The notes under the pieces are model-generated. The model saw only the letters and a program-made list of their open reading frames with translations. It was not told the origin of the DNA and did no database searches. From assembly GCA_017539165.1 (NCBI GenBank), contig JAFYHN010000083.1, positions 1 through 36,007 on the forward strand: DNA of 36,007 bases, given 5' to 3'. Source of the stretch: Eubacterium sp. (GTDB lineage Bacteria; Bacillota; Clostridia; Lachnospirales; Lachnospiraceae). Below are positions 2,046 to 32,284 of this stretch, piece by piece. The position numbers and the translations under genes were made by a program. The stretch's first letter is position 1. Every line of letters starts with the position of its first letter.

Positions 2046-3650
2046 CTATTTTAATACGAAATATCTGCAATTTGGAATTTCAAATACATCAGGATTATCA
2101 TTGTAATAATGGAATGAGAAGTATCCTATATCATTCCAACTCTGGCCATTGAACAACCCTGTACCTTTTTCAAGTTTCTCATATTTTCCTTTAGAACCAA
2201 AAATTACTGCTGGTCTAGCTGCACTAGCACCTTCCACTTCACCAACAATAGCAATTGTATCATCCCAATTCCAACTTCCATCTTCAAAGAAAGACATAAC
2301 TTCTCTTTTATTTACAGGAAGAACCGAGGTATTATATTTCCAATTATTATGTGAAGTATAGTATTTAGATGATTTAATAGGTCTGCGAGAATTCCATAAA
2401 TCTGTTTCAATTTCAGTAACACGTTTCCATTCAGGAGGCTCTTCACCATATTTTTCAATATATTCTTCACGAGTATACATATTAATACCTCGCTGGTCAT
2501 GTTCGTCACCCCAATATAAAGGTTCTTGAGCTGATTCGATTGGTCTGCGAGATGATACGACATTATTCGGTTTTTCTCCGATATATCTCTTATCAAGTTT
2601 CTTTGCACTATCCCAATCAAACTCTTTCCAATGATAAATGTAATCTTCATCAACAACCATTCCGTTAGATTCAATAAAAGAGTGAATGTCATCAAAATCA
2701 CCAACCAATATCATGCCGGTTCTTCCGTTATAATCATAACAGCCATAGTTAGTAACAGAATTTTTAATAGCACTAAGTGCCATTTGCTTAGTCCAATGTT
2801 GAGGCCAGATACCACTTACATATACACAATGGAGAGTATCAGCTGCTGATTTAATAGGTCTGCGAGAATTACATAACCAAGCAGAACCATAATCTTTATC
2901 ATACCATTCGACAATTTCTTCAGGTGTAAGATAACCCATAAATACTGCACCATCTTCTCCGTGCCATTTACCATCTTCTTCTTTTGTAACAGTTATAGTT
3001 CCGTCATAACCACACTCTCCTAAAGATACATAAAATTCTGTTACTTCAGAATCATCTTCATCTTCATATTCAGATTTGATTGGTCTGCGAGATGATTTAA
3101 TTTGTTTTCCGAATTTATCATATACCTTGGCAGAAAGACCTTGTATATTATTTTTCTTATTTGCAAAATCTATGGCATCTTCTTTAGTATAGAAATACTC
3201 TTGTTTAAGTTTGCCATAATCATCAGAAATATCTACATAATATTCCATATCCTTGATATTAGCTGAGAATAAAGCCTCTACAGACTGTTTGTTTCTTTCA
3301 AATCCATTCATTATATTCTCCTCTTCAAACCATCTTTCAGGTATTCTTATATCAAACTTTACAAACCTATAAAGGTTCTGAACTTTACATTTTCTGACAG
3401 CAACATCACTATCACAGATATATTCCACTACATCAGGTTCTTTTGTTCTGAAAAAATTATTGATAGGTTTATAACCTCTTATTGTTCTTATACTAGGAAC
3501 ACCACCCGATACTTCTGGGTCATCCCAATATTCCTTATAGAGATTTATAACATCTTCGGAAGTTTTACAAGTTTTTAATTTCCCATTATAGTATTGCATA
3601 AGTTCAGCAGCCTTTTGTAAAGCCTCATCATATGTTTCACCAATTCTCAT
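2046..3650 (-). CDS. Modular protein with four SRRPIKS-type linkers
   Basis: I recognise no family. The 534 residues divide into five blocks joined by near-identical linkers: SSRRPIKS (186-193), NSRRPIKS (261-268), SSRRPIES (366-373) and NSRRPIKS (420-427). Blocks are acidic and aromatic-rich, and do not resemble each other closely. A different linker-like segment, RNKQSVEALFSA (about 119-130), matches the ALFS segments in the 30368-32284 protein. The DNA encoding linkers 2 and 4 shares an identical 23-nt word (2371-2393 and 2848-2870). The start overlaps the stop of the preceding gene (ATGA) and has TTTGGAGATTAT upstream. I infer a late structural or packaged polyprotein cut at the linkers by a prohead protease. 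The linkers might instead be packaging signals or plain flexible joints. Confidence 0.8.
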   Translation of the reverse strand: MRIGETYDEALQKAAELMQYYNGKLKTCKTSEDVINLYKEYWDDPEVSGGVPSIRTIRGYKPINNFFRTKEPDVVEYICDSDVAVRKCKVQNLYRFVKFDIRIPERWFEEENIMNGFERNKQSVEALFSANIKDMEYYVDISDDYGKLKQEYFYTKEDAIDFANKKNNIQGLSAKVYDKFGKQIKSSRRPIKSEYEDEDDSEVTEFYVSLGECGYDGTITVTKEEDGKWHGEDGAVFMGYLTPEEIVEWYDKDYGSAWLCNSRRPIKSAADTLHCVYVSGIWPQHWTKQMALSAIKNSVTNYGCYDYNGRTGMILVGDFDDIHSFIESNGMVVDEDYIYHWKEFDWDSAKKLDKRYIGEKPNNVVSSRRPIESAQEPLYWGDEHDQRGINMYTREEYIEKYGEEPPEWKRVTEIETDLWNSRRPIKSSKYYTSHNNWKYNTSVLPVNKREVMSFFEDGSWNWDDTIAIVGEVEGASAARPAVIFGSKGKYEKLEKGTGLFNGQSWNDIGYFSFHYYNDNPDVFEIPNCRYFVLK

Positions 3651-3787
3651 ATAATCTCCAAATATTCAAATTCTTCTGCTAGAACAGTCAGGGAAGAATC
3701 ATAAACATCTTCCTCAACTTCTTCAACATCTAATAGCGTAGTATTATTTTTAACAACATTGAAATCGTTTTCAACTATATCTAACAT
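3647..3787 (-). CDS. Small acidic protein, apparently leaderless
   Basis: Of the possible starts I choose the ATG at 3787, giving 46 residues beginning MLDIVENDFNVV. The frame extends upstream to 3829, but that part encodes a Phe/Tyr/Ile string from the AT-rich promoter. The protein is acidic (DVEEVEEDVYDSS) and its function is unknown. The ATG sits directly after the late-type element TTATATATTT with no room for a ribosome site. The stop overlaps the next gene's start (ATGA), so it may also couple translation into the modular gene downstream. Confidence 0.5.
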   Translation of the reverse strand: MLDIVENDFNVVKNNTTLLDVEEVEEDVYDSSLTVLAEEFEYLEII

Positions 3788-3806
3788 ATAAAAATATATA
3801 AAATAC
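3788..3806 (-). promoter_or_regulatory. Late-type promoter element abutting a start codon
   Basis: Core TTATATATTT in the sense direction (3792-3801), 4 bases before ATG 3787. It is one of about ten copies of this element in front of leftward genes and resembles the T4 late -10 box in composition. The role is inferred from position and recurrence. Confidence 0.55.
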
Positions 3807-3942
3807 CTGAATATAAACCGGCAATACACTCAATTCTGTAATACTGATGTTTTGAGAAGACTTTTCAATTAATTTGAGTAATTATACCATTTTGGTCAAA
3901 TACCCCTTAAATTTTCAATCCTAGGTGGGTTACAGGGGATTT

Positions 3943-5538: not shown

Positions 5539-5547
5539 CAATTACAG

Positions 5548-5578: not shown

Positions 5579-5842
5579 ATGAAGAGAATGGTATGGGATA
5601 TTCCTTTGGCAACACTTGGTTCTTATATGAACAGACAGCCTGTGAAAGTAGGTTACTGGAATCTTATGGGCAGCAAGTTTTATGATGACCTTCCTGTGTA
5701 TGAGGGTTCTATGGGTGGTCTTATGTATGACAGAGCTAATGAAAAACTCTGGCAGGACATGAAGATGAAAAAGGTTATAAGCCTTGCAGCTGAAGACGGT
5801 TGTGTTGTAATCGGCATTGACAGATTCGACAACAATTTCTAA
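5579..5842 (+). CDS. Small rightward early protein, unknown function
   Basis: 87 residues, beginning MKRMVWDIPLATLG. No family recognised, no membrane segment or zinc site. It has the best expression signals in the window: consensus sigma70 promoter, leader hairpin, and AAGGAG 5 bases before ATG. Immediate early phage genes of this size often act on host functions; that is only context here. It lies opposite in direction to every neighbouring gene, which suggests an independently acquired or independently controlled unit with the gene that follows. Confidence 0.8.
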   Translation: MKRMVWDIPLATLGSYMNRQPVKVGYWNLMGSKFYDDLPVYEGSMGGLMYDRANEKLWQDMKMKKVISLAAEDGCVVIGIDRFDNNF

Positions 5843-5888
5843 CAATATGGTTTGCCGGTTTCTCCTTAAAACCGGAAGTGAGATAGGT

Positions 5889-6446
5889 ATGATAAGCAAC
5901 TGTTTATTTGAAGCAATTAAGGCAAAACTCAAGGACCCCAGAAATGTAAGGATTATCAGACTTCCTAAAGAGATAAGCAACACCGCACATTTTATGTGGA
6001 TTAATAAAAACAATGTTTATCATGCTTATGATTATAAACATTCTAAAAATCATTTCCTTTTTGACTGTAAAATAAAATCAATTCCCGATTATGTGTTTGA
6101 ATCTTTTATTCTAAATGAAATTGAGTTCAATGATAATAAGATTAATCTTGCAGAAAAATGTGGTCTTAAAATTACTGACTATAAATCTGAATGGAACTGG
6201 TCGTTCAAAGACCTTGATTATAAGAATCTGCCAACACAACTAGATATTGACTTTTTTGAAAAAGTTCTTAAATGTCAGGCAAAATTCAAACTCTGTATTG
6301 ATGGAAATATTAAAACAGTTAATCTTGATGAATTGAAATCTCAAAACTGTGATTTTGAATGGAAAATGATAGACCTCTATGACCCTGATTTTGAAAGGGT
6401 CTATAGAGGTCATAAATTAAGCAAATTATCAGATATTACTAATTAG
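5889..6446 (+). CDS. Rightward protein of unknown function
   Basis: I choose ATG 5889 (MISNCLFEAIKAKLKDP; 185 residues), which follows GAGATAGG. ATG 5847 and 5817 are in frame, but 5817 overlaps the previous gene and the stretch between is occupied by a CCGGTTT/AAACCGG hairpin (about 5853-5876). The protein mixes basic and acidic segments and has paired Trp (SEWNWSFKDLD); no family is recognised. Its stop overlaps the stop of the convergent gene at 6443 by 4 bases, so there is no intergenic space for a terminator; an inverted repeat inside the last codons may serve. Confidence 0.7.
   Translation: MISNCLFEAIKAKLKDPRNVRIIRLPKEISNTAHFMWINKNNVYHAYDYKHSKNHFLFDCKIKSIPDYVFESFILNEIEFNDNKINLAEKCGLKITDYKSEWNWSFKDLDYKNLPTQLDIDFFEKVLKCQAKFKLCIDGNIKTVNLDELKSQNCDFEWKMIDLYDPDFERVYRGHKLSKLSDITN
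6372..6411. repeat. Long inverted repeat at a convergent gene boundary
   Basis: Arms GACCTCTATGACCC (6372-6385) and GGGTCTATAGAGGTC (6397-6411) pair over 14 bp with a single bulge and an 11-nt loop. It lies inside the coding end of the rightward gene, 32 bases before its stop. It may work as a bidirectional terminator or RNase-processed stem, although no clear T-run follows. Confidence 0.6.
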
Positions 6447-9337
6447 TTCTGTTTCACAAGTCTGACATTTTCAGGACCATACATCTGCACAGCTTTTTGA
6501 TATACTTTCTTTGAATTAGCATCTTTCTGATTCTTAAATTCTGCTGGTGAACCATTACCTACACCATCTTCCCCAAGAATTACCCATTCGTCACCATCTT
6601 TCACTTCAGCATAATATCTTCCTACTGAAATTACTCCTGATACAACGGGTTTTTTCAAACTACTTGCAAGGAATGTACGTTCATCAACTTCATTTCCATT
6701 GTGGTCATAAAGCGTATATCCTATAAGTTCATCAGGTTCAAAATCATAGAAGTCAAATGTATCACCTTCATCACAATATGGGTCTACAGGAGTTACTTTA
6801 GTAATCTGCCAAGATGTATATTCTCCTGTATCATCATCAAAGTCATCTCCGGCATATTCATAGATAAATCCATCTGCTTCAAAAGAACCGAATTCTTCAG
6901 TACGGTCGATTTCATCAACATATTCATCATCTTCATAAATTCTGTCACCTTCAGAATATGTTATATGATATGGGTCAAGTTCAATTCCTGTACAATACCA
7001 TCTGTCTCCACTATCAAGCTGGAACCAGTACTGATTACCCTGTCCATCATCAAGATAACATTCATCAAGACCATAGTTCAAGTCTTCATCTTCTTTCCAG
7101 TCCCAGTAATCATCTTTGTTTGGTTTCTGGAACAGTTCAGGATTCTCCCGGAGAATCTGTTCAATCTCAGTTGTAAATGTTTCAATGAAGCTGTCATAGT
7201 CATTGTCATCAGCACGTTCTTCATGGTCAAGCCATTTCTGAATCTGTTCATTTACACCCATTTCAGCTTTTTCGGTAATGTATCTTGCTGCCGGGTTTAC
7301 GGATTCGTTTCCATAACCACGACCAATCATATCTCCATCATTGTTATAACGGTAGATAATCTGATTTGCAGCTCTTACCATTTCACCACCAACTGTGTTT
7401 GATTTACCACTATCATTTGTGTACTGTTCACCCCAAGATTCAAGGTCTCCGTCAATATCAAACTCTGTATTGATGTCTTCTGCAATATCAAGAATACCTG
7501 ACTTAATCAGTTTAGGTTTATACTGTTCAACCCAAGATGAAAGAATCTGACGGGCATAGCCGGTGTTTACATCCTGTTTATCAACAATATTCTGTACAGC
7601 CTGTTCTTCTGACCATCTTCCTGAAAGAATGTTTTTTACGGTTTTAACAGGGAATGAACGAGTATTTGCAAAAGATGATTTCACAGGTTGAATTGTAGAT
7701 ACATCGATACCGTTTTCATCTAAGATTTTATTCACGATTTTTGCGGCAAGTTCTTTATTATCAAAACAAGGGTCATCTTCTTCAGTATATTCTCCGCCTT
7801 CAGATTCATATTGAACAAAAATATCATTGAAAGCATTACCACTATCATAAATAGCATCTTCAATAGGTTGAGCAATATCTTTACCATATGTATCATAAAG
7901 GAAGTCGAACAGACAATAATCTTGTTTGTCTTCATCAATCTCAGTAGGGTCATACTCATCTTCTTCATCGTCGTCATATCCGCTTACTTCATCCCATTCA
8001 CGGAAATCATTCATACGGAAAATGAAAGCCATATCAGCTGCAAGTTCATCATATCCGATAGCCTGTGAAAGATTGTTAAGAAGTTCAGTTGTTCCCATAA
8101 GTTCTTTACAGGTTTCATACTGGTCCCAAACATCATCAAGGTTTTCAATCTCTTCCCAGAATCCCCACTGGGTTGCAACCCATTCAAGATTTTCTTTAAG
8201 GTCATCTGTAGAGAGAGCCCTTGCAAGACTTTCAAGTGCTTCTTCTTCACCGGCATATTCGATAAACAAATCGAGTGCTTTCATTGCATCAGATGTTCTT
8301 ACTTCCCAGCCACCATCAACAGCAGATTTAATTTCTCTTGATTGGAATACTCCATTCATATCTTCCTGACCTCCCATTTCCTGAGATTCTGAATCAACTA
8401 TTATTGCACCACCAAGACTTTCAGCCTCTTCATAAGTATCAGCTTCACCGATGACTTCACCATTTTCATCTTCCACAAGGAAACGAGCAGATGTTATTTC
8501 ATTGTCAGACCAGTCTTCCAAATCAAACATTACAGCAAGTTCAGCCATTTCATCGAATTTATCCTGTACATCTTCCCAATCAGAATTAAGGAATTTTTTT
8601 GCTTCTCCCTTATAATCTTCATAACCATACTGTTCAAATACAGAATAAACATCTTCAAAAGAAATCATTTTTTCATCTGCAATATCTGAAACTTTAGAAG
8701 ATTTAATAGCCTTACGAGAATTACGAACATAAGAACCACCCTTAACTTCAGTAACCCAAACATCAGTAATTGCAGCACCTTTTGTTCCGCTATTATGAGA
8801 GAACTCATCAACACCATTTACAGCGTCTTTATATTCTTTCCAATCTTTAGCATTGAACTGAGTATGAGAAACCCTACCGTCTGAAGTCTGAACTGTAAGA
8901 ACAGCCTGATTACCTCTACCCTCAATTTCATTTATAATATGTTCTACATCAAGTATTCCCTGACCTGTAGTATCAATGTGGTAATCGTCATACTGAGTTC
9001 CCTCAGCAACGTTTTCAAATCCTTTTTGAGAACTGTTTATCTTTCTATGAGAAGATTGAATATCATCAGGATAAGTACAATATGTTTTTCCTTTAGCATC
9101 CCTTACCTGAATAAACATATCTTCAGGAAGTTGTGGAATAATTGATGCAAGTGCTTTTTTAAGATTTTCTTTATTGAACATTCTTGCATACAATAGTCTG
9201 TCTACCTGACCCCAATCATCTCCGATAGGGAAATATCTTTTATCTTTAGCACGTAAATCTTTACTATAAAGAAATAAATTTATCCCATCTGGAATTTTAT
9301 CTATCCAATTAAAATCTATTGATGAAATTACTTTCAT
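6443..9337 (-). CDS. Large modular protein with protease-site-like linkers
   Basis: 964 residues, strongly acidic, no family recognised. Blocks are separated by linkers of the shared type: HRKINSS (97-103), NSRKAIKSS (206-214), QSREIKSA (332-339), QPVKSS (550-555), KLIKSG (609-614) and SSLKKPVVSG (892-901). The block at 340-450 is helical, 450-545 is very acidic, and the last 60 residues look like a small separate domain. AAAGGAGAATGAT before ATG is a strong ribosome site. It lies just after the portal and the 9371-10195 gene in transcription order. I infer a virion or packaged polyprotein. Linker spacing predicts fragments of roughly 55-280 residues, if all sites are cut. Confidence 0.8.
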   Translation of the reverse strand: MKVISSIDFNWIDKIPDGINLFLYSKDLRAKDKRYFPIGDDWGQVDRLLYARMFNKENLKKALASIIPQLPEDMFIQVRDAKGKTYCTYPDDIQSSHRKINSSQKGFENVAEGTQYDDYHIDTTGQGILDVEHIINEIEGRGNQAVLTVQTSDGRVSHTQFNAKDWKEYKDAVNGVDEFSHNSGTKGAAITDVWVTEVKGGSYVRNSRKAIKSSKVSDIADEKMISFEDVYSVFEQYGYEDYKGEAKKFLNSDWEDVQDKFDEMAELAVMFDLEDWSDNEITSARFLVEDENGEVIGEADTYEEAESLGGAIIVDSESQEMGGQEDMNGVFQSREIKSAVDGGWEVRTSDAMKALDLFIEYAGEEEALESLARALSTDDLKENLEWVATQWGFWEEIENLDDVWDQYETCKELMGTTELLNNLSQAIGYDELAADMAFIFRMNDFREWDEVSGYDDDEEDEYDPTEIDEDKQDYCLFDFLYDTYGKDIAQPIEDAIYDSGNAFNDIFVQYESEGGEYTEEDDPCFDNKELAAKIVNKILDENGIDVSTIQPVKSSFANTRSFPVKTVKNILSGRWSEEQAVQNIVDKQDVNTGYARQILSSWVEQYKPKLIKSGILDIAEDINTEFDIDGDLESWGEQYTNDSGKSNTVGGEMVRAANQIIYRYNNDGDMIGRGYGNESVNPAARYITEKAEMGVNEQIQKWLDHEERADDNDYDSFIETFTTEIEQILRENPELFQKPNKDDYWDWKEDEDLNYGLDECYLDDGQGNQYWFQLDSGDRWYCTGIELDPYHITYSEGDRIYEDDEYVDEIDRTEEFGSFEADGFIYEYAGDDFDDDTGEYTSWQITKVTPVDPYCDEGDTFDFYDFEPDELIGYTLYDHNGNEVDERTFLASSLKKPVVSGVISVGRYYAEVKDGDEWVILGEDGVGNGSPAEFKNQKDANSKKVYQKAVQMYGPENVRLVKQN

Positions 9338-10197: not shown

Positions 10198-12165
10198 TTA
10201 TTTTCTCCAGACATTAGCAACATAGTTATCCATTGCACCATTCATGTAATTATAAAGATATGTACAAACATCAGCTTTACTTGTAAGATGATGATTTCCA
10301 CATTCATCAATATAAAGATTATTTACATAACTGATTGAAGCCAAATCCAAATCTCCTGCTGTAATCTTCATACCCTTAGTACAGTAAATAGGGAACTTGA
10401 AGTTTACACCTTCTCCATCAACATGCTTGGAATTATCAATGTAATCCTTATGCAGATTCTTTTTATCTTCCATGATTACAAATCCTGACAAATCCATAGG
10501 AGCATCACGCTTTACAGCAAATGATGAATAAACCTGTTTAAGTGTTACAGGATTACTTACTTCCCGGATTATTGATTCATTATCATCTGTATTTGTAAGT
10601 GCAGATACGATTTCTTTAGCTTCTTTCTTTTCAATAAGTCCATTAAGAACCATAACTCTGGCATCTTCATTGAGAATCTCTTTCCGGAATGAATTAAACT
10701 TACCTTTACGGAAAGATGTGCCAATCATCATGCTGCCATCTTCAGGAACACCAAGGTCTTTATCAGCTTCCATAAGTTTCTCTGAATCTACCCCATAGTT
10801 AGCAAGGGCATCACCAAGAAGAGCCTTTACAAGGTATTTCTTATTATAATCAGTCTGCATACCATTCAAAGAATCTGTAATTTCTTTAAGATTCTCTACA
10901 GCAAGTTTAAGGGTTTCTCCCTTATCCATATCTTCAAGCATTGTCTGGCTTACCGTGAGATAAGACCAGTCATCTTTAGTTACATTATAGCCGAGTGAAC
11001 GCAGATGGAGATAATCAATGTTTTTAAGTGCATTAAAAGCTGAGAATGATACAGCCTTACATACTTTAGCAAACCGTTTATCCCAAGTAACAGCTGCACT
11101 ATCACCTAATGAACTTGGAGTATCTGAACTGAAACCAATCATAGATGGCTGAATCTGAAGTGCTGAGAAGAGTTTCTGATATTGAACATCAAGGTCTTTT
11201 ACAGCTTTCAAATCCATATTACCAGCAACTTCCTTTACATCAACTCCCTGATTTGTAGTCTGTGGAATAATGACTTCAAAGTTCTGACCACTTCCCCGGC
11301 TTGACATTCCATCAGATGTATAATCAACCCGTCTTACTTTCTTGAAGAGATTCCTGTAATAATTCAGAACCTGAATGGCTGATTTACTGTAAACCTGACC
11401 ACCAACATTTACGCAGATAAGTCTGTAATAATTTGACTGGTCCATACGATTAAGAAGTAAGGCATCTTCAATTATGTTTACGTTTCTCCAAGGTTTACTT
11501 GCAGCACCAAGATAACTGTTGGCATATGTGAACTCATTCTGAAATTCATTTGAACCATCGTTATTTGCACCACCAATGGTCATAGATGTGTTCTGAGTAT
11601 TACCACCAAGATTCTTATAATATTCAAGCTGACTGTAAGTATATTCATAAGATGGAACGAAATCATTCTTTTCATTCATAAATCCGATTGTCTTACCGGA
11701 AATAATTACAGGGGTTATTGATGTAAAATCAGGAATCGGAACAACTCTTTCAAGTACCCCATCATCATTATAAATATGTTTCCAAGGGAGCTGACCCCAT
11801 AAAAGATTATTATAACCATCAGTAAGAATAAAATTATCAGCGTCAATCTGTTCATGAAAAGCATCTAATTCCTGCTGTATTACTTCATATGGTGTATTAA
11901 GTTCAAAAAGTTTATTCTGAGAATTCGATTGAAAAGCTGTCTGCATAACACACTTTACGGCAGCTGAACAGATAGGGTCATCATTCATTGCCTGTACATC
12001 TTTAAGCGAATTGAGAATGGATTTCGTCATCGCATTATTTACAGAGTAATTCGGGTAGTTATTGAATTCTTCTACCTTATTAAAAAGTTCTTCTTCCTGT
12101 TCAGGAAAAATAAAATGTTTTACTCTTGCAGGTAATGTCTGTTTTGTACTTCTATTATTAGCCAT
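10198..12165 (-). CDS. Portal protein, T4 gp20-like
   Basis: 655 residues, close to T4-type portals (about 520-560) with extra N- and C-terminal sequence. The central part carries the expected portal pattern: RLICVNVGGQVYSKSAIQVL leading into a YYRNLFKKVR helix, then a Gly/Ser loop and NFEVIIPQ, then DLDVQYQKLFSALQIQPSMIGF, matching 'lP..eGg...L..l.d..yf.kkLy.aL.vP.s.l' of the gp20 family. The portal forms the dodecameric ring for DNA packaging and tail attachment. It has its own late-type promoter and AGAGGAG 13 bases before ATG, and it heads a unit with 9371-10195 and 6443-9337. Recognition is by pattern, not alignment. Confidence 0.75.
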   Translation of the reverse strand: MANNRSTKQTLPARVKHFIFPEQEEELFNKVEEFNNYPNYSVNNAMTKSILNSLKDVQAMNDDPICSAAVKCVMQTAFQSNSQNKLFELNTPYEVIQQELDAFHEQIDADNFILTDGYNNLLWGQLPWKHIYNDDGVLERVVPIPDFTSITPVIISGKTIGFMNEKNDFVPSYEYTYSQLEYYKNLGGNTQNTSMTIGGANNDGSNEFQNEFTYANSYLGAASKPWRNVNIIEDALLLNRMDQSNYYRLICVNVGGQVYSKSAIQVLNYYRNLFKKVRRVDYTSDGMSSRGSGQNFEVIIPQTTNQGVDVKEVAGNMDLKAVKDLDVQYQKLFSALQIQPSMIGFSSDTPSSLGDSAAVTWDKRFAKVCKAVSFSAFNALKNIDYLHLRSLGYNVTKDDWSYLTVSQTMLEDMDKGETLKLAVENLKEITDSLNGMQTDYNKKYLVKALLGDALANYGVDSEKLMEADKDLGVPEDGSMMIGTSFRKGKFNSFRKEILNEDARVMVLNGLIEKKEAKEIVSALTNTDDNESIIREVSNPVTLKQVYSSFAVKRDAPMDLSGFVIMEDKKNLHKDYIDNSKHVDGEGVNFKFPIYCTKGMKITAGDLDLASISYVNNLYIDECGNHHLTSKADVCTYLYNYMNGAMDNYVANVWRK

Positions 12166-12283: not shown

Positions 12284-13576
12284 TTAGTTTACGATAACCT
12301 GTGTAATTGAACTGAATACACCTTTCTGGTCGTTGATTCCATAATCAGCAAGAACTTTCTTGCAGGCAGAACCGATAACCTTTGTGATTTTATTAGTCTT
12401 GTTCACAGGGTCTTCAGCAACAGGAACATATTCCTTACAGTTGCTTACGATACAATTTACAGCCGGGTCTTCAATATGGAATTCAAGACCACTTTCCAGT
12501 TCACTGAGCATGTATCCTTCTTTCTTCAGAGAGTTTCTGATTTCAGAAAGTTCAGGAATGGCTCTGAACTTGGCAACACTCTTTCCTTCATTGCGGGCAC
12601 AAACAAGGAGAGATTTGTTTGAATCAAGTCTGAACTGAATGCTTGTAGCAGATTTAAGATACTGTCCGAAAAGGTTCTTATATTCAAGTCTTTCAGTAAT
12701 CTTTCCGGCAGAAAGGATTGCTGAAGTTTCATATGCAAGAACCTGTTCCATTGCAGACAAGCACAATCCATCAGAATATTTAGTGTCTACATAATTAGAA
12801 AGAGCTTTTCTTGACATTGGTGAACTTAAAATCTGCTGTGCCTTAATTGTATAAGGATTCTTGCTTCGCATTGTTCCTGAAGAAATGTTTCTCTTTGCAG
12901 GACTGTTGAAAGCAAAAATCTTATTGCTGTCTTCTTCAAAAACCATCATGTTTACTTTATCAGCTGATGAACAGCAGAAGTTACCTACAATTGTCTGACC
13001 TACATCATTGATATATTCAGAACGAGGTGCTACAGCATAATCATCAATATTTGCTGCTGATTTAAAAAGTGCAAGACTTACTTCATTTTCAACACATGAT
13101 TTAACAGGTTCTCTGTCATGAATAGAATAAGCAGAGAATCCGCTGAGAAGAACCATTACATCATCAGCATTTACTGTACGGGCTTCTTCATAATATGAAA
13201 GAACAGCTTTTGGAGTTGAATCCTTTACTGTCCACTTTCTTCCACAAGGGTCCTCAAGAATAATAGAATTTCCGATAACCTTTGTTGGAACAAAGAAAGC
13301 ATTGTCGTACTTCTTATCTTTAATGCCTGTCTTAGACTGAACACCAAACAATGACTGAATGATATATCTGTGGAGAACTTCATCAAGACGACCTGACTGA
13401 ATCTCCATTATAGTGTTTTTCTTCTGATTATAAATCAGGGCACCACCTTTTTCATTCAATCTTACAGAAACAATGTTTCCTTTGTACTGAATGTCATAAC
13501 CATTGTCGAGTGTTATAGCATCATCTACCAGACCAGTGTCTGCTAGAGTTTTAATATAATTATCTGTACGAATCAT
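12284..13576 (-). CDS. Unknown protein, probable virion component
   Basis: 430 residues, soluble, no family recognised. It contains one core-like element, REPVKSC (about 155-161), that could be the shared cleavage motif. Other Ser-rich segments (FCCSSADK, SSPMSRKALS) are present. Strong ribosome site: AAGGAGAAAAGAA before ATG. It sits between the core/scaffold candidate and the portal, each separated by terminators, a position consistent with a capsid-associated or head-assembly protein. No enzyme motif was seen. Confidence 0.75.
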   Translation of the reverse strand: MIRTDNYIKTLADTGLVDDAITLDNGYDIQYKGNIVSVRLNEKGGALIYNQKKNTIMEIQSGRLDEVLHRYIIQSLFGVQSKTGIKDKKYDNAFFVPTKVIGNSIILEDPCGRKWTVKDSTPKAVLSYYEEARTVNADDVMVLLSGFSAYSIHDREPVKSCVENEVSLALFKSAANIDDYAVAPRSEYINDVGQTIVGNFCCSSADKVNMMVFEEDSNKIFAFNSPAKRNISSGTMRSKNPYTIKAQQILSSPMSRKALSNYVDTKYSDGLCLSAMEQVLAYETSAILSAGKITERLEYKNLFGQYLKSATSIQFRLDSNKSLLVCARNEGKSVAKFRAIPELSEIRNSLKKEGYMLSELESGLEFHIEDPAVNCIVSNCKEYVPVAEDPVNKTNKITKVIGSACKKVLADYGINDQKGVFSSITQVIVN

Positions 13577-13652: not shown

Positions 13653-15437
13653 TTAACCAAAGATACCTTTGTACATCTTGGCGAGTGTCTCAGCATTACG
13701 AGTATTGTTTGACTTGATTTCCAGTTTTTCTTCAGACATCTGACGCTGAGAATTCTGGAACAGTCTCTGTCTTTCTTCAGCTTCGTGCATATTGCGAAGT
13801 TTGATTTCATTCTGCTTAGCTGCATTTGCAGACATTACAGCCTGTCTTGTTTTAGCTCTTTCAGAAAGAATTTCTCTACGGGCTGCTGACATAACCGGCT
13901 TTCTTGCAGAAGTTACCGGTCTGCGTGTTGCAGCAGAAGTTACCGGTCTGCGTGGGTTATTAAGAACTTCCTGACGGATTGCACTTGAACGAACAGGTTT
14001 CTTTGCAACAGGTTTTCTTGCAGAAGTTACCGGCTTACGAGCAGCTGTTCTTGTTCCTCTTGCAGAACGGATGAGTTCCTGCTTAGCCTTTGCCATACCT
14101 TCCTTACGACCGGCAAAATGAGCACTTGCAATGCGTTTTGCAATGATTACTCTTTCTGCTGACTGGAATACATTGGCTTCAGTTCCTCTTGAAATAACAA
14201 CTTTGTTGTTCTTGAGAAGAACAGGCTTATATGTTCCCTTACCATTGTTTACATAACGGGCAACACATGCGAAAAGACCCTGAGATGTTGATTTGAAAGC
14301 ATAGGCAATCTTACCACATTTGATTACTTTTCCATTGAGAGTTCCAACTTCTCTTGAAGAATTAACTACACGATAGATATTATAACCTTTGTTAAGACGG
14401 CTTGAAATCTTTTCCATCTTTATCTTTTTCTTGCTGTTGGTAAGCGGCACTTCAACCACAACAATGTCCTCATCAGGAACATCAACACCATCAGCATCAA
14501 GTGTTTCTGTTGTATCACCAGAATTATTTGTTACATCTTCCGGTTCAATCTGTTCAGGAGATACAGCATTTTCAGGATTTCCTTCTTCATGGTAATCTGT
14601 ATTTCCCTCACCATTCATGTCAGTAGGCTTGTTTTCCGGGTCTGTTGCTCCACCATTTGGTTCAAACTCTTCACTTGATTTAAGGAGTTTAGAACAGAAC
14701 TTAGCCTTGGCATCTTTATTTGAACGGATAGTCTTAATCAATTTGCACTCAATCTTTTTCTTGAGTTTATCCTTTTCTTCCTCTTTCTTAGCAAGAGCAG
14801 AAACGATTACCCAGTGAACAGCCTTGAGTTTAGATGAACCAATCATCTTCTTAACTTTCTTGTAAGCTGCAGACCAAGCTTTCTTATTTGTACTTGATTT
14901 AAGAACTACATAACCTTTCTTGTATTTCTTTGAAGCACTGTTTCCGATAACAAGAACATCATCTTCTGTATCTTCAGGTACGGCTGTATCTTCAACATCA
15001 AGTGGAATATCTTCACAAGTATCAAATACTGTACACTCAAGACCATCAACATTGTCTTCATAAACCTCATCTGGTGTCTGTTCAACTTCAATAGCACCAT
15101 CTTCTGATACCATTACACGAACAGCAGAGTTGGTGAGTTCTTCAGGAAGTTCTTCTTCCTCCGGGAACTCTTCTTCGGCAGGTTCTTCATCATGGGTTTC
15201 ATCAATTAAATCACGAATCTCATCAAGAAGTTCATCAGCGTCGATTTCTTTCTCTTCAACGTTTGCCTCTTCAATTACAGCATCAGCAAGTGCTTCAATT
15301 GCCTGTACTGCATCCACGATGTCTTCTTCTGTAATTTCGACATCAGCAAATTCCTCTGCATTTGAAACCTCGTCGATAATTGTTTCATCAACTTCAAACT
15401 GGTCTTCTTCTGCGGACTTAATAAATTTCTTTTTCAT
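13653..15437 (-). CDS. Charge-polarised head core/scaffold candidate
   Basis: I choose ATG 15437 (MKKKFIKSAEED; 594 residues), 8 bases after a perfect GGAGG; the longer frame to 15494 encodes promoter sequence. The N-terminal ~180 residues are very acidic (EEPAEEEFPEEEELPEEL), followed by a Lys-rich block, a second acidic block, a globular segment, and a basic C-terminus. That C-terminus has tandem copies of the linker motif (RKPVTSARKPV, RRPVTSA, RKPVMSA; about 475-535). FIKSA at residues 5-9 is the same motif at the extreme N-terminus. Heavily charged, multiply cleaved core proteins are typical of T4-type proheads, so a scaffold/core role is inferred. Own late-type promoter upstream and a terminator on each side. 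Confidence 0.75.
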   Translation of the reverse strand: MKKKFIKSAEEDQFEVDETIIDEVSNAEEFADVEITEEDIVDAVQAIEALADAVIEEANVEEKEIDADELLDEIRDLIDETHDEEPAEEEFPEEEELPEELTNSAVRVMVSEDGAIEVEQTPDEVYEDNVDGLECTVFDTCEDIPLDVEDTAVPEDTEDDVLVIGNSASKKYKKGYVVLKSSTNKKAWSAAYKKVKKMIGSSKLKAVHWVIVSALAKKEEEKDKLKKKIECKLIKTIRSNKDAKAKFCSKLLKSSEEFEPNGGATDPENKPTDMNGEGNTDYHEEGNPENAVSPEQIEPEDVTNNSGDTTETLDADGVDVPDEDIVVVEVPLTNSKKKIKMEKISSRLNKGYNIYRVVNSSREVGTLNGKVIKCGKIAYAFKSTSQGLFACVARYVNNGKGTYKPVLLKNNKVVISRGTEANVFQSAERVIIAKRIASAHFAGRKEGMAKAKQELIRSARGTRTAARKPVTSARKPVAKKPVRSSAIRQEVLNNPRRPVTSAATRRPVTSARKPVMSAARREILSERAKTRQAVMSANAAKQNEIKLRNMHEAEERQRLFQNSQRQMSEEKLEIKSNNTRNAETLAKMYKGIFG

Positions 15438-24123: not shown

Positions 24124-25581
24124 CTACTCGATAACGAACTTGAGCATAGAGTTCTCAAATGCACGGGTTCCACCGAGCTGGCATCCCATACCCTGAATAG
24201 AGTGGAGGTCATCCATAGCAAGAGGATTTGTAGCGTAGAGAGAGATGAACGAACCTGTAAGGTAAGAAGCATCCATTTCATCACGCTTGTAACCGAGCAA
24301 TGCAGTATCTTCATCGAAGTCCTGATTCTTGAGAACCTTGAATCTGTTGAACAATGTACCGGCAACATATGGACCGATTGGTTCAGCAGAGTAGCTGTTA
24401 GCAGACCAGATTTCCTTGCTGTTATAGAAGTTAGCAGAGAGAGATTCAATGATGTTCATCATCTTAGAACCTGCAACAATCCAGTTTGCACCAGAACGTG
24501 CAATGTTCTTACGAATTTCATTGCTTGCTTCAATGATAGCCTGAAGGATTGACATGTTGTGTTCAATCTGTGAAACACCGGCTGGAAGGATTGAGTTCCA
24601 TGTAGCAGAACCATCTGCACGAGCCAACATTTCATCAAACATGTTACAGCTGATTTCCTTGTTAATCAAACCACCGAGGCTTGTTGAGAGAACTTGGTCA
24701 ATATCATATCCATTGAGGACCTGCTTTGCAGCATAGAAGTCATCAAGTGAGTATGTTGAGCGAAGTCTGTAAGGATTTGCTGTGATTGTCTTTGACTTCC
24801 ATTCAAGAACAATCTGTGCTGGTTTCTGTCCTGTGATATAGCTGTCAGGTGTTGCACCCCAGTCATAGCGGTATTTGATAGAAACTTCAGCGTCAGTTGC
24901 GGCAGCATCAAGAGTGATAGAAACTTCACCAGTTGCATAATCAACAGTACCAGAAGTGATAACGTTGAGAACAGGATTGATGTTTCCTTTTCCATCATCA
25001 AGAGTAAATGCGTTAGCTGCACCTGAGATTGTAATTTCAAGTGTATTTGGAAGCATTGAACCTTCAGGAGCTGTGAATGTTACATCTGTTCCTGAAACTT
25101 CAGCGTCAGCAGCAACCTTGTTGGTTGTGTATGTGTTTTCCTTAGCCCAGTTTGTAGAACCAAGCAATGCAGTACCCTTTGTGATACCGTTGCGGTCTTC
25201 ATTAGCAGTAATCTGTGGATAGAAGATTGGTGATTCTTTTGTTGGCATTGGCTGAACACCACAAACTTCTGTATAAGCGAAGTTTGGAATCAGGATTGAG
25301 TAAAGGTTGTAAAGAATAGCAATTGGGTTGTCTACCTTTGAAATATCAGAGATAGCAGACTTGATTGCTTCCTTTGATTTACCTTTACTAACCATTACGT
25401 TAGTAACCTGCTGAAGAGAGTTCTTGAGAACAGCTTCCTTTTCCTTAGACATCTTTGTTCCCCAGCGTTTTGCATATGCATCTCTTGACTGAGCAATGAG
25501 ATTATTGTGCAAAGGGTCAACTGAAGAATTAATCTGTGTCATTGTCGAGTTGAGTTTAGCCTGTGCTTCTTCTCGTGTCAT
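24124..25581 (-). CDS. Major capsid protein, T4 gp23-like (HK97 fold)
   Basis: 485 residues, close to T4 gp23 (521). Residues 1-75 are a charged, helical N-terminal part like the removable delta domain, ending in EAIKS-A (71-76), the motif shared with the modular proteins. IAILYNLYSILIPNFAYTEV and VQPM (about 87-112) match the gp23 'q.. GVQPM' start of the mature fold. Residues about 150-245 are an Ig-like insertion (TLEITISGAANAF ... GTVDYATGEVSITL). The C-terminal half has GANWIVAGSKMMNII and FISLYATNPLAMDD, as in gp23. It forms the capsid lattice. Strong AAGGAG site and a long structured leader with tandem late-type promoters; it is separately terminated, as suits a very abundant protein. 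Confidence 0.87.
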   Translation of the reverse strand: MTREEAQAKLNSTMTQINSSVDPLHNNLIAQSRDAYAKRWGTKMSKEKEAVLKNSLQQVTNVMVSKGKSKEAIKSAISDISKVDNPIAILYNLYSILIPNFAYTEVCGVQPMPTKESPIFYPQITANEDRNGITKGTALLGSTNWAKENTYTTNKVAADAEVSGTDVTFTAPEGSMLPNTLEITISGAANAFTLDDGKGNINPVLNVITSGTVDYATGEVSITLDAAATDAEVSIKYRYDWGATPDSYITGQKPAQIVLEWKSKTITANPYRLRSTYSLDDFYAAKQVLNGYDIDQVLSTSLGGLINKEISCNMFDEMLARADGSATWNSILPAGVSQIEHNMSILQAIIEASNEIRKNIARSGANWIVAGSKMMNIIESLSANFYNSKEIWSANSYSAEPIGPYVAGTLFNRFKVLKNQDFDEDTALLGYKRDEMDASYLTGSFISLYATNPLAMDDLHSIQGMGCQLGGTRAFENSMLKFVIE

Positions 25582-28331: not shown

Positions 28332-30356
28332 CTAGCAGCAAAAGAACAGGTTAGAATTTCTTGCTGTAATTACATAAAGATTTCCATTGTCATCTTTGAG
28401 CAAAGCACCATTCATTCCATAAGTACCTTTAGATACAGCAATTTTAGTCAATGGTTTAATCTCCATAATCTGTTCCTGTGACCAGTTTGTAATATCTGTA
28501 GCAATACCATCTCTTGCCATATCTTTAAGCTGTTTCTGTGAATAACCTGACTTGATTGGTTTACGACTACTTTGAATATTATACATTCTTTCAATTTCAG
28601 CCTTACTTCCAGCTTCAAAACCATGTTGTTTAAGCCATTCTCTTACATGGCGAATAGTTGTCTGGGAATAAGACCAGTCAGGATAAAGCACCGGTTCACC
28701 ATTTATAATCTCTGCAACTAATGTACCATATGAATAAAGTTTATCATCTTCAGTTTCAGCTTTATTATAAAAACTTGCACGTGAATCATATTCAGGTTTC
28801 AAATAACCACGAGCCATTGATTGAATTGGTTTTCTGCTGTTATCAATTCTCTTATACCAAGTTTCACCATTACTGAATCTTGCTGATACTCCAAGTTTCA
28901 TCCAGCCATATTCTGAACAAAGTTTGTTCAGGAAGTCATTTATTTTACCTACCCATTCATTCTGTACTCTTTCTTCAACTTCCTTAACAACCCGGTCATA
29001 ATCAGCTTGGTCTTCAGCATATTCAAAGTCATCAAGCAGACCCTCATCATTTGCAATTTCTTCAGGGTCGAAGTAAAGATTATCATCGGTAAATATCTGC
29101 ATACCATCATAATAACCACCGCCTATTCCTACAAAGAATGGCTGGTCATAACCAGCATCTCGACTATCATATCTCATACGGTGAATATCAAAATCAGAAA
29201 GTTCTATTCCCATTTCATCGGCGAGACTTTTAGCTTCATCATAAGCATCTTCATAATACCAAGATTCAGCATCATAATCCCGTTCATCTGTTTCTTCACC
29301 AGTTTCTTCATCAACAACATATGCTGTTCCATCAAAAACTACTAATGGGAAATCTGCACTTGCTCGGTTATCTGCAAAATTAGATGTTCCTGACTTAATG
29401 TATTTTCCTGATTTTATAGGTCTCATAATTTTCATGTTTGTTCTCCTGTTTGAATTAATATTAAAACCAATATATTTATAAATATCATCAAAAACAATAT
29501 CATAAAGATATGACCAGCAGCGTTTGTCTGAAAAATAATTTTCAGGAACAAGTTTCTTAATATAAGATTTAAGTTCCTGTGGTTCAAGGTTAAAGTCAAA
29601 AGGAAGGTCTATCAATTTTACTGTAATATTATCCAACTCATCATTGAGTTTTATATTACCAGCATTATCATAAATTTCTTCTTCATTTGCTTTCTTGACA
29701 AGTTCAGCAGCTTTCAGAATAGCCTTATCAAACATATCCTGTGTCTTACTTGATTTAATAACCTTACTTTTCTTAGATGAATTTATATTCTCACTTCCAT
29801 TCCAAAGATAATCAGGATTAACTATAACATCGAACCTGTTTCCAATAGATGGATTTATTCCCCAGATGAAACTGTCTGAATTAAGCGGCATGTCATCTAC
29901 CCAGTAAGAATTAAAGCCGCTTGGTTCCTCTTCTTCAGGATAAAGGTCGAAAGCAAATCCGTTTGGAATAGGATATGCCGGTGTGTTTGACGGAATTTCT
30001 TTACTGATGTCTTCTGCCAGTTCACTCAGACCTCTCTTATAAAGAGAAAGTGTATAGCCAAAATCATGCTGGAAAGTATCATCTGAACAGGTTGCTATGA
30101 ATTCTTCATCAGTATCACAATGATAGGTATCATAAACATCATACCCGTTATCAGGATATTCTTTCTCAAGATATTTAAGCCAGTTATTAAATCCGGCACG
30201 GGTATAAACAGTTCCATCTTCATCAGCGATAAGCAGAGGTTCTGTGAAACTTATGCCTGTGTCTGTCATCTGGCTTTCAACATCATCCATATCTTTATCA
30301 TGATATTCCCAGCTGCCATGTGCTGATTTAATAAACTTTGATGATTTAATTTTCAT
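28332..30356 (-). CDS. Modular protein, apparent fusion of two genes
   Basis: 674 residues. It begins MKIKSSKFIKSAHGS, with the shared cleavage motif right at the N-terminus. Further motifs: SKVIKSS (197-203), MRPIKSGKYIKSG (311-323), NSRKPIQSM (506-514) and SSRKPIKSG (596-604). At residue 308 an internal Met is preceded by a perfect ribosome site encoded in NRRTN, and the sequence after it looks like a second gene's N-terminus, so two proteins may have been joined. Blocks are acidic and aromatic, and no enzyme is recognised. AAAGGAGAACAAC before the first ATG. Inferred late polyprotein; it is followed by a terminator. Confidence 0.8.
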   Translation of the reverse strand: MKIKSSKFIKSAHGSWEYHDKDMDDVESQMTDTGISFTEPLLIADEDGTVYTRAGFNNWLKYLEKEYPDNGYDVYDTYHCDTDEEFIATCSDDTFQHDFGYTLSLYKRGLSELAEDISKEIPSNTPAYPIPNGFAFDLYPEEEEPSGFNSYWVDDMPLNSDSFIWGINPSIGNRFDVIVNPDYLWNGSENINSSKKSKVIKSSKTQDMFDKAILKAAELVKKANEEEIYDNAGNIKLNDELDNITVKLIDLPFDFNLEPQELKSYIKKLVPENYFSDKRCWSYLYDIVFDDIYKYIGFNINSNRRTNMKIMRPIKSGKYIKSGTSNFADNRASADFPLVVFDGTAYVVDEETGEETDERDYDAESWYYEDAYDEAKSLADEMGIELSDFDIHRMRYDSRDAGYDQPFFVGIGGGYYDGMQIFTDDNLYFDPEEIANDEGLLDDFEYAEDQADYDRVVKEVEERVQNEWVGKINDFLNKLCSEYGWMKLGVSARFSNGETWYKRIDNSRKPIQSMARGYLKPEYDSRASFYNKAETEDDKLYSYGTLVAEIINGEPVLYPDWSYSQTTIRHVREWLKQHGFEAGSKAEIERMYNIQSSRKPIKSGYSQKQLKDMARDGIATDITNWSQEQIMEIKPLTKIAVSKGTYGMNGALLKDDNGNLYVITARNSNLFFCC
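29433..29447 (-). promoter_or_regulatory. Internal ribosome binding site and start codon
   Basis: AGGAGAA (29447-29441) lies 5 bases before an in-frame ATG at 29435, inside the 28332-30356 gene. Nearly the same sequence (AAAGGAGAACAACATG) starts the whole gene. It could give a 367-residue second product beginning MKIMRPIKSGKYIKSG. Confidence 0.7.
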
Positions 30357-30367
30357 GTTGTTCTCCT

Positions 30368-32284
30368 TTATGGTTTCATATCCATTTCAGCTTCCTGCCA
30401 GCCATCTACCCAGCTGTCAAAATCTTCAGTTCCCTGTTTGTAAGGACAGTTCCTGTCGTTTCTCATATAGGCATTGTAGCCTTCTGAGAATGGGTCATGG
30501 TTATCATCAGGAATATTTATGGATTGAGAATTATTATAATCAGAAAGAGCTTTAGAAATAAAATTTTTATCAACACCTATTTTCACAAAATTATAATAAG
30601 TTGAATCTAATTCAAAAGCATATGGTGGCATAAAATATAAAGAAAAATAAAGTGTATTATGTTCTTTACTGAATCCACAAGGAGTAAGATGTGGTTTTTC
30701 ATCAAAAGTACGTTTATATAATCTGTTACATACAGTTTCTATATTAACAGGAACTTCATCATACTTCAAATCAGCAACAACACGCCGAAGTTCATACCAT
30801 AAATCTGTTTTGTAATATGAAAGATTAGTTAAGGCACTCTGCTGTTTAGGATACTCTGATTTATGTTTACATAGCCAGTCATAAAAATCAGAAAAGTCAT
30901 TTAACCAAGTGAAAGTATCATAATCAATATTTTCAAACCAGTCATCAGGATTTCCTATTTCATCTACTTCAGAAAAAAGAGCTTTCAATGTTCTTTCATT
31001 ACGGGAAGATGTTATTCCATGCTGTTCATTATATTCATTCCATTGTTCTTCAGTACCTTCCACTTCACTCATAGCACCATTGGAAGATATATCCCAGAAG
31101 TCTTTGTAAATCTTATAGTACTTTGGTGTCTTGTGGTCTTTCTCAAAATATTCATAATAAGTTTTCTCATCGAGACCACCATCACCATATTCAAACATTT
31201 CCAGAAAACTGCTGTCTTTTACCCACTTATCAATATCATTTTTGATTTCTGACCAAGTGTAAAAACTTCCGCTGTCATCTTCATAAAGGGTTTCTTTTGA
31301 TGATTTAATTGTTCTTGAACTCTCTACAAAAGATTTTATTTTTGGATAATCAACACCTTCAGGCAAACCATTTGGATACATGTGCTTATTTACATATCTA
31401 TCATACTCGTGATTCTTCATCTGACTTATAGCCGTTTCAAGTTTACCTTTAAGAGAATTCATATCATTCTCTTTTCGCATAGAACCACGGTAAGGGTCTT
31501 CCCATTTTTCAAATCTGAAATCAATTTCTTTTTGAGCAACCATCCAGTTCTTATAATAAACATCTACTCCACTTAAAGTACCATAACATCCACACAAAAT
31601 TACCAGTATTTTCCAGCCATTATTGAAAGTAATGGTAACACGAGTATATTTTGGGTTTCCTGACGGTCCATCAACATAAATCTTACAGTCATATGGTTTC
31701 AACACATTTCTAATCACATCAACCATTTCTAACTGTGCATTTTTTGTCTGTTCATTAAATTTTCTATCTTTCTCTTCAATTTCTCGTTTCATACGGGCAT
31801 AATAATCTTCATCAGAGAATAAAGCTCTTGTAGTCTTTTCATTTCTATCATAGCCACTTATAATCATATCTGATTCTCCCATATTCATATAAGGTGAAGA
31901 AGTTATATCACTTTCATCATCAGCATAACCATCATAATTTTCTCCAACACCCGGTCTTTTATCAGAATTTGGTTGAGGCTGATTATTTTTATTTCCTTTT
32001 TTACCAGACTGTTGTTTATCTTTATCATCAGGTCTTGGTGGGTCTTTTTTAACAGGATTTACAGGATGTGTAGGTTCTATGGGTTGTACCCCATTATTAT
32101 ATCTTTTTTCATATTCAACCCAAGCATCACCTAGACCATCTATAGCATTTATATTATTTCCCAAATCCCATTCTTCTCTATAACAGAATTCATGGGCAGA
32201 ATTATAATCTCTTTCAGTAAATTCACCGAATTTTTTGAGCAATTTATTCAGGTAATAGTCTTTATATTCTTTTCGTGTTTTCAT
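30368..32284 (-). CDS. Modular protein with two linker types and RMF/CrpP-like end
   Basis: 638 residues. Residues 66-112 are Pro/Lys/Asn-rich and disordered. Two linkers of a second type, DRNEKTTRALFS (146-157) and SSRNERTLKALFS (426-438), and one of the common type, SSRTIKSS (322-329), separate the blocks. The last 40 residues (about 597-634) have the spacing G-x2-A, then N-C-P-Y, then W-x2-G-W, typical of the ribosome modulation factor/CrpP superfamily. It is transcribed before 28332-30356 (11 bases apart) as one late unit. The late-type element abuts ATG 32284 and there is no ribosome site. Inferred polyprotein. Confidence 0.78.
   Translation of the reverse strand: MKTRKEYKDYYLNKLLKKFGEFTERDYNSAHEFCYREEWDLGNNINAIDGLGDAWVEYEKRYNNGVQPIEPTHPVNPVKKDPPRPDDKDKQQSGKKGNKNNQPQPNSDKRPGVGENYDGYADDESDITSSPYMNMGESDMIISGYDRNEKTTRALFSDEDYYARMKREIEEKDRKFNEQTKNAQLEMVDVIRNVLKPYDCKIYVDGPSGNPKYTRVTITFNNGWKILVILCGCYGTLSGVDVYYKNWMVAQKEIDFRFEKWEDPYRGSMRKENDMNSLKGKLETAISQMKNHEYDRYVNKHMYPNGLPEGVDYPKIKSFVESSRTIKSSKETLYEDDSGSFYTWSEIKNDIDKWVKDSSFLEMFEYGDGGLDEKTYYEYFEKDHKTPKYYKIYKDFWDISSNGAMSEVEGTEEQWNEYNEQHGITSSRNERTLKALFSEVDEIGNPDDWFENIDYDTFTWLNDFSDFYDWLCKHKSEYPKQQSALTNLSYYKTDLWYELRRVVADLKYDEVPVNIETVCNRLYKRTFDEKPHLTPCGFSKEHNTLYFSLYFMPPYAFELDSTYYNFVKIGVDKNFISKALSDYNNSQSINIPDDNHDPFSEGYNAYMRNDRNCPYKQGTEDFDSWVDGWQEAEMDMKP

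Follow-up and report, generated by a model that had tools for sequence, protein, structure and literature searches.

The recognition motifs published for the head-maturation proteases of phages T4, phiKZ and SPN3US end in glutamate (Glu), in the portions of the sources drawn on here (PMC9026906, PMC10052503), and C-terminal self-cleavage is described, in similar portions, for the T4 enzyme gp21 and its relatives (PMC5694885, PMC9026906). Here we examine a family of long proteins whose blocks are joined by a recurrent linker, (N/S)SR(R/K)P(I/V)KS(S/A), and which are encoded on a 36,007-nucleotide stretch of DNA assigned to a Eubacterium sp. (hereafter the window; contig JAFYHN010000083.1 of assembly GCA_017539165.1). 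An original prediction had read the linker as a prohead-protease site of the form (I/V)-x-S↓(S/A/G), the arrow marking the cut, in a set of structural polyproteins. The reading as a protease site is largely supported by counterparts in the capsid protein, a scaffold-like protein and the protease; cleavage itself is predicted from these. We consider it likely that the linkers are prohead-protease cleavage sites in polyproteins of internal head proteins, cut after serine (Ser) at (I/V)-x-S↓.

The linker motif in the window and its relatives

Motif counts were taken over 36 non-overlapping open reading frames (ORFs) of at least 80 residues, 10,890 residues in all, with each protein shuffled in 300 rounds. 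The scan bore out the expected enrichment: SR[RK]P[IV] occurs eight times in the window proteins against 0.01 expected, [NS]SR[RK]x[IV]xS ten times against 0.00, and [IV]KS[SAG] 25 times against 1.46, with a maximum of 6 in the 300 shuffles. Four control motifs in the window (Thr or Glu for Ser, Phe/Met for Ile/Val, and the reversed motif) stay at chance level or below. In the longest related contig, G001, the control [IV]KE[SAG] was found 11 times against 6.1. At the DNA level only the clustering of the linker is remarkable, because its nucleotide pattern has seven matches in the 3.2-Mb assembly (six in the window, one on contig C93) and the reversed control gave 6.

All seven long proteins in which the linker had been noted carry it at the stated places. 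Named by their first coordinate, and counted under the strict form [IV]KS[SAG] and a broad form respectively, they hold 3 and 4 sites (2046), 4 and 6-7 (6443), 1 and 7-8 (13653), 6 and 7 (16650), 1 and 3-4 (25765), 6 and 7-9 (28332), and 1 and 4 (30368); those of 13653 are mostly PVTS↓A or similar. The copies noted at extreme N-termini are likewise present, in 13653 and 28332 (Table 1). Three features go beyond the original prediction, namely the occurrence of sites in pairs, a site in the capsid protein, and the presence of the motif throughout the long proteins of about ten related viral contigs, which were found by scans with the capsid protein and the protease.

Across the family, with Ile/Val at P3 and Ser at P1 fixed by definition, P2 is mostly Lys (44%), P1' is Ser, Ala or Gly, and Arg, Lys and Pro are frequent upstream. 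Paired sites 6-7 residues apart, such as IES↓SRRPVKS↓G, account for 32 spacings against 4.9 under random placement. The P1 Ser is retained at 217 of 290 aligned sites; for other Ser residues the figure is 893 of 1669. The near-duplicates L033, L034 and L035 were left out of these spacing and conservation counts and of the N-terminal, block-boundary and second-peptide counts given below.

Sites in the head proteins and the prohead protease

The sequence I[KM]S↓A stands at the propeptide junction of the capsid protein in all nine sequences read; the nine hold two near-duplicate pairs (L010 with L009, L034 with L032), and L011 and L035, whose capsid proteins were matched in part, are outside this count. 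In the window the predicted cut lies 23 residues before a conserved PNF, and in the S77 relatives LIS04, SP-15 and GXN1 the sequences LLE↓T, MFE↓T and LLE↓S each lie 22 residues before PNL; for T4 gp23 the distance is 38 residues after LTE↓A. In an automatic alignment the site columns of the window lineage and of the Glu relatives are not exactly superposed.

The prediction presupposed a prohead protease, and Peptidase_S77 (Pfam) has a single match in the whole assembly (40.3 bits, cut-off 27), on a second contig, C27 (gene at 5754-6626); in G001 the corresponding match (36.9 bits, Pfam 4.8e-9) lies on the same contig as the capsid gene. A profile built from five homologues of this protease matches the solved structure of T4 gp21, 5jbl, with E 7e-4. 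The motif GED[QC]HR aligns with GEADHP and GELNHP, and GTSSRG with G[IV]SSR; we take these conserved His and Ser motifs to be the catalytic core. The protease itself carries LIKS↓G near its N-terminus in four of five homologues and AIKS↓S near its C-terminus in three of five, with a partial sixth sequence (L009) also showing AIKS↓S. T4 gp21 has Glu-type sites near both ends.

Serine in place of glutamate at P1

Five residues were compared at P1 of [IVL]-x-P1↓small over whole stretches, against shuffles. The Ser form is strongly enriched in the window (z score 10.8), in the head part of C27 (6.1) and of G001 (10.3), and in L024 (17.2), L025 (10.3) and L032 (10.8), while the Glu form has z between -1.2 and 1.8 in these six stretches of the window lineage, so that by motif counts the Glu specificity of T4 and phiKZ type does not appear here. 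The reverse holds in SP-15, GXN1, T4, L042, L048 and L050, where the Glu form reaches z 3.5, 6.1, 5.4, 4.1, 4.4 and 4.8 respectively and the Ser form -1.9 to 0.8. The more distant L loci in this comparison come from a set of ten S77 loci, L042-L051, from which L042, L045, L048 and L050 were taken and L043, L046, L047, L049 and L051 left out; L044 is, by its length, SP-15 itself, L043, L049 and L051 look like copies of tested loci, and L046 like a copy of L047.

In GXN1, SP-15, L042 and L050 the long protease is richest in Glu sites (12 to 21 against 3.4 to 4.5); the capsid protein and a small number of others also show some excess. Linker polyproteins were not noticed in these four stretches, in which no systematic search for them was made.

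Blocks and fused gene starts

Blocks were delimited by using as queries the 54 proteins with at least two sites, capsid proteins excluded, and retaining high-scoring segment pairs of at least 40 residues. When one direction per pair and different contigs only are counted, 61 of 175 internal block boundaries have sites no more than 8 residues away on both sides, against 4.2 with shifted sites (maximum 20 in 500 shifts), although boundaries of related proteins are not independent. Without L010, which is near L009, the one-direction count is 52 of 154; with both directions counted the figure is 105 of 289 against 7.3. The first block of polyprotein 2 (6443) recurs inside the G001 protein at 63632 and the cargo block of polyprotein 5 (28332) inside that at 70315, parts of polyproteins 6 (30368) and 5 are joined in one G001 protein, and a block of polyprotein 3 (16650) is a small separate gene in L025.

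Several internal sites look like former gene starts. A strong Shine-Dalgarno (SD) sequence 4-10 bases upstream precedes 10 of 62 internal Met residues that are followed by a site, compared with 23 of 1792 other internal Met residues (Fisher 4e-8); overlong ORF calls probably account for one of the ten and for several of the 23, which would then be the true starts, and some of the ten are homologous. A 949-residue protein of G001 holds three such fused starts (M410, M526 and M720), besides M236 with a weaker ribosome-binding site. This arrangement of SD, Met and site looks like the trace that neighbouring genes would leave on losing the stop codon between them, and translation may still start internally at these positions.

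The blocks as putative internal cargo

The cargo block of polyprotein 5, queried alone as residues 511-596, matched 111 phage records, 105 of them over at least 80% of its length; in the two records that were opened its homologue is encoded on its own, by a gene of 82 or 87 residues. From the terminal repeat of Bacillus phage P59, 31 genes on the plus strand were compared with the blocks. P59_031 (residues 6-81 of 82, 50% identity) resembles a block of polyprotein 5, P59_016 (11-90 of 90, 40%) a block of polyprotein 3, and P59_007 (2-74 of 80, 35-41%) blocks in L008, L010, L023 and L025, with none in the window; two more P59 genes gave weak matches to proteins without sites. Around the matching blocks the nearest site is mostly 4-5 residues away on at least one side, any remaining distance being 9-16, the exceptions being L025 (13 and 31) and L009 (none on the right).

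Homologues of the blocks in P59 and other phages are annotated as hypothetical where inspected. No phage matches were obtained for blocks of polyproteins 1 (2046) and 6 or of L025_13579, and those of polyprotein 2 gave one match, to an uncultured 595-kb phage (E 3e-5). A whole-length search with the L010 polyprotein returned only P59 (E 1e-3), its direct comparison with the P59 genes, a small database, giving 1e-12. None of the six window polyproteins has a Pfam family above cut-off, whether peptidase or effector domain. Residues 595-635 of polyprotein 6 resemble ribosome modulation factor (RMF; E 2.9e-5, below the Pfam cut-off) and possibly represent a block acting on ribosomes.

In SPO1 the takeover module sits in the terminal repeat, and from this position only, the P59 homologues of the blocks would be takeover genes. 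The module of SPO1 is given as 26 genes in the part of the source used (PMC6873191). The predicted structural role of the polyproteins calls for revision: because three blocks match nearly whole terminal-repeat genes of P59, the blocks are probably not structural, and internal, injected cargo is the likelier assignment.

Phage context and other features

The window is contig C74, one of 112 in the 3.2-Mb assembly. Its head gene set is T4-like, with a Gp23 capsid protein and a Portal_T4 portal (Pfam), and by its gene content it is a piece of a T4-like myophage. The capsid protein of G001 (142,789 bases) shares 92% identity with that of the window, and the two contigs are syntenic over 47.8-76.9 kb of G001, the first gene of the window excepted. 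A tail sheath match in G001 (phrog_23, E 6.8e-8) marks G001 as a myophage, with a contractile tail; the window itself showed none. Because C27 begins with the genes that come next in order in G001, it is very probable that C74 and C27 are parts of one phage. Their 300-base ends share no exact word of at least 15 bases.

The capsid gene was found in one of 392 genomes of the host's order, that of the window itself, and no relative was found among 391 candidate stretches of genome contigs, from which the window's own genome was possibly excluded; this makes it unlikely that the contig is a prophage common in that order. Seven plasmid records gave weak capsid matches, at 21-24% identity in five of them, and a scan with the portal protein added one further relative, L055.

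The features of the window are collected in Table 1. For polyprotein 3 and the scaffold-like protein the listed ORF starts lie upstream of likelier start codons.

Table 1. Head proteins, candidate polyproteins and selected sites of the window (positions counted from its first nucleotide; ↓, predicted cut)
Feature	Coordinates	Strand	Remarks
Candidate polyprotein 1, 534 aa	2046..3650	-	Four linkers, P1 at 186, 268, 373, 427; start-like M114 with strong SD
Linker NSRRPIKS↓SKY, polyprotein 1	2367..2393	-
Linker SSRRPIES↓AQE, polyprotein 1	2529..2555	-
Linker NSRRPIKS↓AAD, polyprotein 1	2844..2870	-
Linker KFGKQIKS↓SRR, polyprotein 1	3090..3116	-	First half of double site IKS↓SRRPIKS↓E
Candidate polyprotein 2, 964 aa	6443..9337	-	Sites with P1 at 95, 102, 213, 283, 338, 554, 613
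Linker NSRKAIKS↓SKV, polyprotein 2	8696..8722	-
Portal, T4 gp20 type	10198..12165	-	Pfam Portal_T4 E 1.1e-16; without site of the common form
Conserved head-cluster protein	12284..13576	-	I[QE]S↓[GA]RL near residue 61 in 4/4 listed homologues (window, G001, L024, L032)
Scaffold-like protein (by position and composition; without family match)	13653..15437 from likely start	-	N-terminal MKKKFIKS↓A
Six-site run towards C-terminal end of scaffold-like protein	13905..14147	-	Mostly (R/K)PVTS↓A or similar
Candidate polyprotein 3, 509 aa from likely start	16650..18179	-	Seven sites; one block similar to P59_016 (Bacillus phage P59)
Major capsid protein, T4 gp23 type	24124..25581	-	Pfam Gp23 E 4.1e-21
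Predicted capsid propeptide site KSKEAIKS↓AIS	25354..25380	-	P1 = S75
Candidate polyprotein 4, 360 aa	25765..26847	-	Sites VTS↓S, IQS↓M, IES↓G, VKS↓G
Candidate polyprotein 5, 674 aa	28332..30356	-	Propeptide-like N-terminal MKIKSSKFIKS↓A; start-like M308 with strong SD; putative cargo block 514-596
Putative cargo block of polyprotein 5, residues 511-596 queried alone	28569..28826	-	Matches in 111 phage records
Apparent fused gene start (AGGAG) MKIMRPIKS↓GKYIKS↓G inside polyprotein 5	29388..29432	-
Candidate polyprotein 6, 638 aa	30368..32284	-	Double site VES↓SRTIKS↓S; RMF-like C-terminal stretch

In the scaffold-like protein, cuts at each of the tandem basic repeats (RKPVTS↓A) would free several short basic peptides. 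Another peptide also recurs. Its pattern, G[YFHC]xRNxxSxxx[IL]F[SN] with close variants, is present seven times against 0.46 in shuffles: in the window proteins 2046-3650 (residue 116) and 30368-32284 (residue 144), in the C27 protein 6679-8034 (residue 69), and in G001 72073, L008, L023 and L032. In five proteins MNGFERN, or a variant MSGYEKN, marks internal starts preceded by a strong ribosome-binding site. This peptide may be a capsid-targeting sequence.

Adjoining the capsid gene is a NUMOD3 / GIY-YIG homing-endonuclease-like gene (22573-23961), and genes for a D12-class adenine methyltransferase and a C-5 cytosine methyltransferase (27667-28269 and 33120-34064) lie near the head genes. 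On C27, positions 714-2543 encode a DNA-methylase-like protein of 609 residues that by eye contains an intein-like insert; its 244-residue homologue in G001 (78065-78799) is without it.

Discussion

Taken together, our findings suggest a head-maturation system in which an S77 protease, a relative of T4 gp21, would recognise (I/V)-x-Ser↓(Ser/Ala/Gly) rather than (L/I)-x-Glu↓, and in which the long proteins would be strings of small internal head proteins. That one prohead enzyme cuts all of these sites is the simplest account, because those of the protease, the capsid protein, the scaffold-like protein and the polyproteins have one form. The polyproteins would enter the prohead, probably aided by short N-terminal propeptides, and would be cut there when the capsid propeptide is removed and the scaffold and the protease are processed; the small proteins so released would remain in the head and be injected with the DNA, perhaps for host takeover. 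Double sites would allow a short, often basic peptide such as SRRPIKS to be clipped out between two cuts 6-7 residues apart, and a role for such peptides in DNA condensation is a guess. Since each gene would open with a propeptide and a cut site of its own, two neighbours could lose the stop codon that separates them at little expense, and polyproteins could arise in this way.

What the sequences show is how the sites are distributed, the protease, the difference between Glu and Ser, the block boundaries, the fused starts and the homology of the blocks; entry into the prohead, cleavage, retention, injection and action on the host are inferred from these. A host-takeover role for the cargo is plausible, at about an even chance. 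Slightly below this we would place the full scenario, in which a takeover set of tens of small proteins is carried in the capsid as polyproteins and injected ready-made, protease and substrates switched from Glu to Ser, the strings grew by stop loss, and the basic peptides maybe condense DNA.

Several observations weigh against cleavage of the linkers by the prohead protease. In the window's assembly the protease gene lies on C27 and not on C74, and its assignment to the same phage comes through synteny with G001. Ile/Val at P3 is kept in 214 of 290 aligned sites against 2093 of 2970 for other Ile/Val residues, little above background, and 114 of the 175 block boundaries, which are not independent, fail to have a nearby site on each side. 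Besides its propeptide site the capsid protein holds two formal matches (P1 at 19 and 210), of which at least one should stay uncut. For the Glu sites in the capsid proteins of the relatives, position decided the choice among several formal matches. The L025 protease has LIKN↓G, and those of L024 and L025 are without AIKS↓S and end in IASA or IASS. The P1 comparison is weak or mixed for LIS04 (Glu z 1.9) and L045 (Glu 2.2, Ser 2.1), G001 outside its head part has a mild excess of the Ser form (z 3.3), and a Lys form reaches z 3.2 in some stretches. Both structure models are poor, the protease (AlphaFold2, four-sequence alignment) having a predicted local distance difference test score (pLDDT) of 34.

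What else might the linker be? As a capsid-targeting or scaffold-binding tag on proteins that stay whole in the head, it would explain why the motif stands at the N-terminus of 18 of 361 proteins against 3.4 expected (a motif count, in which some of the 18 are mutually homologous), a placement that suits a targeting propeptide, and the T4 targeting sequences are short and N-terminal in the part of PMC9026906 drawn on. We nevertheless find a tag improbable, since the same residues recur at the capsid propeptide junction and near the C-terminal end of the protease, where Glu-type relatives have their sites, and since P1 Ser (217/290) is kept above the P4-P6 residues (140-159/290) that a basic tag might use. 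Recombination joints are a second alternative. Linker codons are identical in 137 of 297 comparisons in the window against 106.8 expected from codon usage, and in 21 of 37 against 12.1 in G001, the rare Arg codon CGC recurs in linkers, and blocks are shuffled at them. Because this agreement exceeds the codon-usage expectation, some linkers probably spread by copying or gene conversion. Other linkers encode the same peptide with different codons, however, and the capsid protein and protease carry sites where no block shuffling is seen, so that joints made of short DNA repeats driving domain shuffling, with no role at the protein level, are very unlikely to be the whole explanation; recombination is probably an addition to cleavage and not its replacement. 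Packaging tag and recombination joint, the alternatives named in the original prediction, seem to be further properties of the linker more than competing explanations.

Equally hard to credit is the notion of uncut multidomain effectors, with the linkers as plain hinges. Polyvalent proteins of 2 to 15 domains are indeed described from phages and plasmids in the part of PMC5512222 used, and in the low-confidence model of polyprotein 5 (pLDDT 49) one block, at about 201-290, appears as a separate fold (62-89) while the linkers near 195, 315 and 513 score about 24-32; a non-linker stretch, 121-190, is as low as the linkers. Yet a hinge needs neither a fixed (I/V)-x-S↓(S/A/G) core nor a spacing of 6-7 residues, and the capsid protein and the protease share that core. 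Polyproteins cut by a different protease in the infected cell, and never packaged, would accord with the matches of three blocks to terminal-repeat genes of a Bacillus phage and with the SPO1 takeover gene cluster, which acts in the cell according to the portion of PMC6873191 drawn on. Against this, the polyprotein genes sit among head genes in both the window and G001, and their sites equal those of the capsid protein and the prohead protease; we hold cleavage outside the head to be a slim prospect, if a little less so than hinges.

Should cleavage by the prohead protease be true, the enzyme and a large set of its substrates would have shifted jointly to Ser. Such a lineage would serve as a natural experiment in protease-substrate coevolution, and it would open a simple sequence-based route to proteins packaged in the heads of uncultured phages. 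Polyproteins characterize many RNA viruses, and a tailed phage that makes its internal proteins in this manner, with visible fused gene starts, would show how they can begin. If the blocks are takeover proteins, they would form a catalogue of small proteins acting on bacterial cells.

Comparison with known systems

The closest described system is the head maturation of T4 by gp21, with the internal proteins IPI-III and Alt. The likeness extends to an S77 protease, a gp23 capsid protein with a propeptide, a gp20 portal, short N-terminal propeptides that end in a site (by motif only), and the form (hydrophobic)-x-P1↓small; the difference is that P1 is Ser here and Glu in T4. Furthermore, the T4 internal proteins are named as single proteins in the parts of the sources consulted, whereas the putative ones here lie in tandem polyproteins. 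Extensive head processing with multiple propeptide cuts is likewise attributed to phiKZ gp175 and SPN3US gp245, but in the portions of those papers used here these enzymes cut after Glu (S/A-x-E and A-x-E), and the parts removed are propeptide and not strings of proteins (PMC10052503, PMC9026906).

Polyvalent proteins of phages and conjugative elements resemble the window proteins in combining many domains in one invading polypeptide, for which separation into units has been proposed (PMC5512222, as excerpted); an internal peptidase domain is envisaged there, whereas here a protease acting in trans would cut in the prohead, at a repeated consensus linker. With SPO1-type phages the likeness is that three blocks match terminal-repeat genes of the herellevirus P59, which are separate small genes there and blocks of head-region proteins here. 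The sites of herpesvirus assemblin have a small P1 residue and Ser at P1', but assemblin belongs to a different peptidase family and is without a polyprotein of internal proteins. Among the titles and abstract openings of open-licence PubMed Central articles we found neither a tailed-phage polyprotein with consensus linkers nor a prohead protease with Ser at P1. Head maturation of T4 type and internal head proteins are known; new here would be the changed cleavage residue and the polyprotein substrates.

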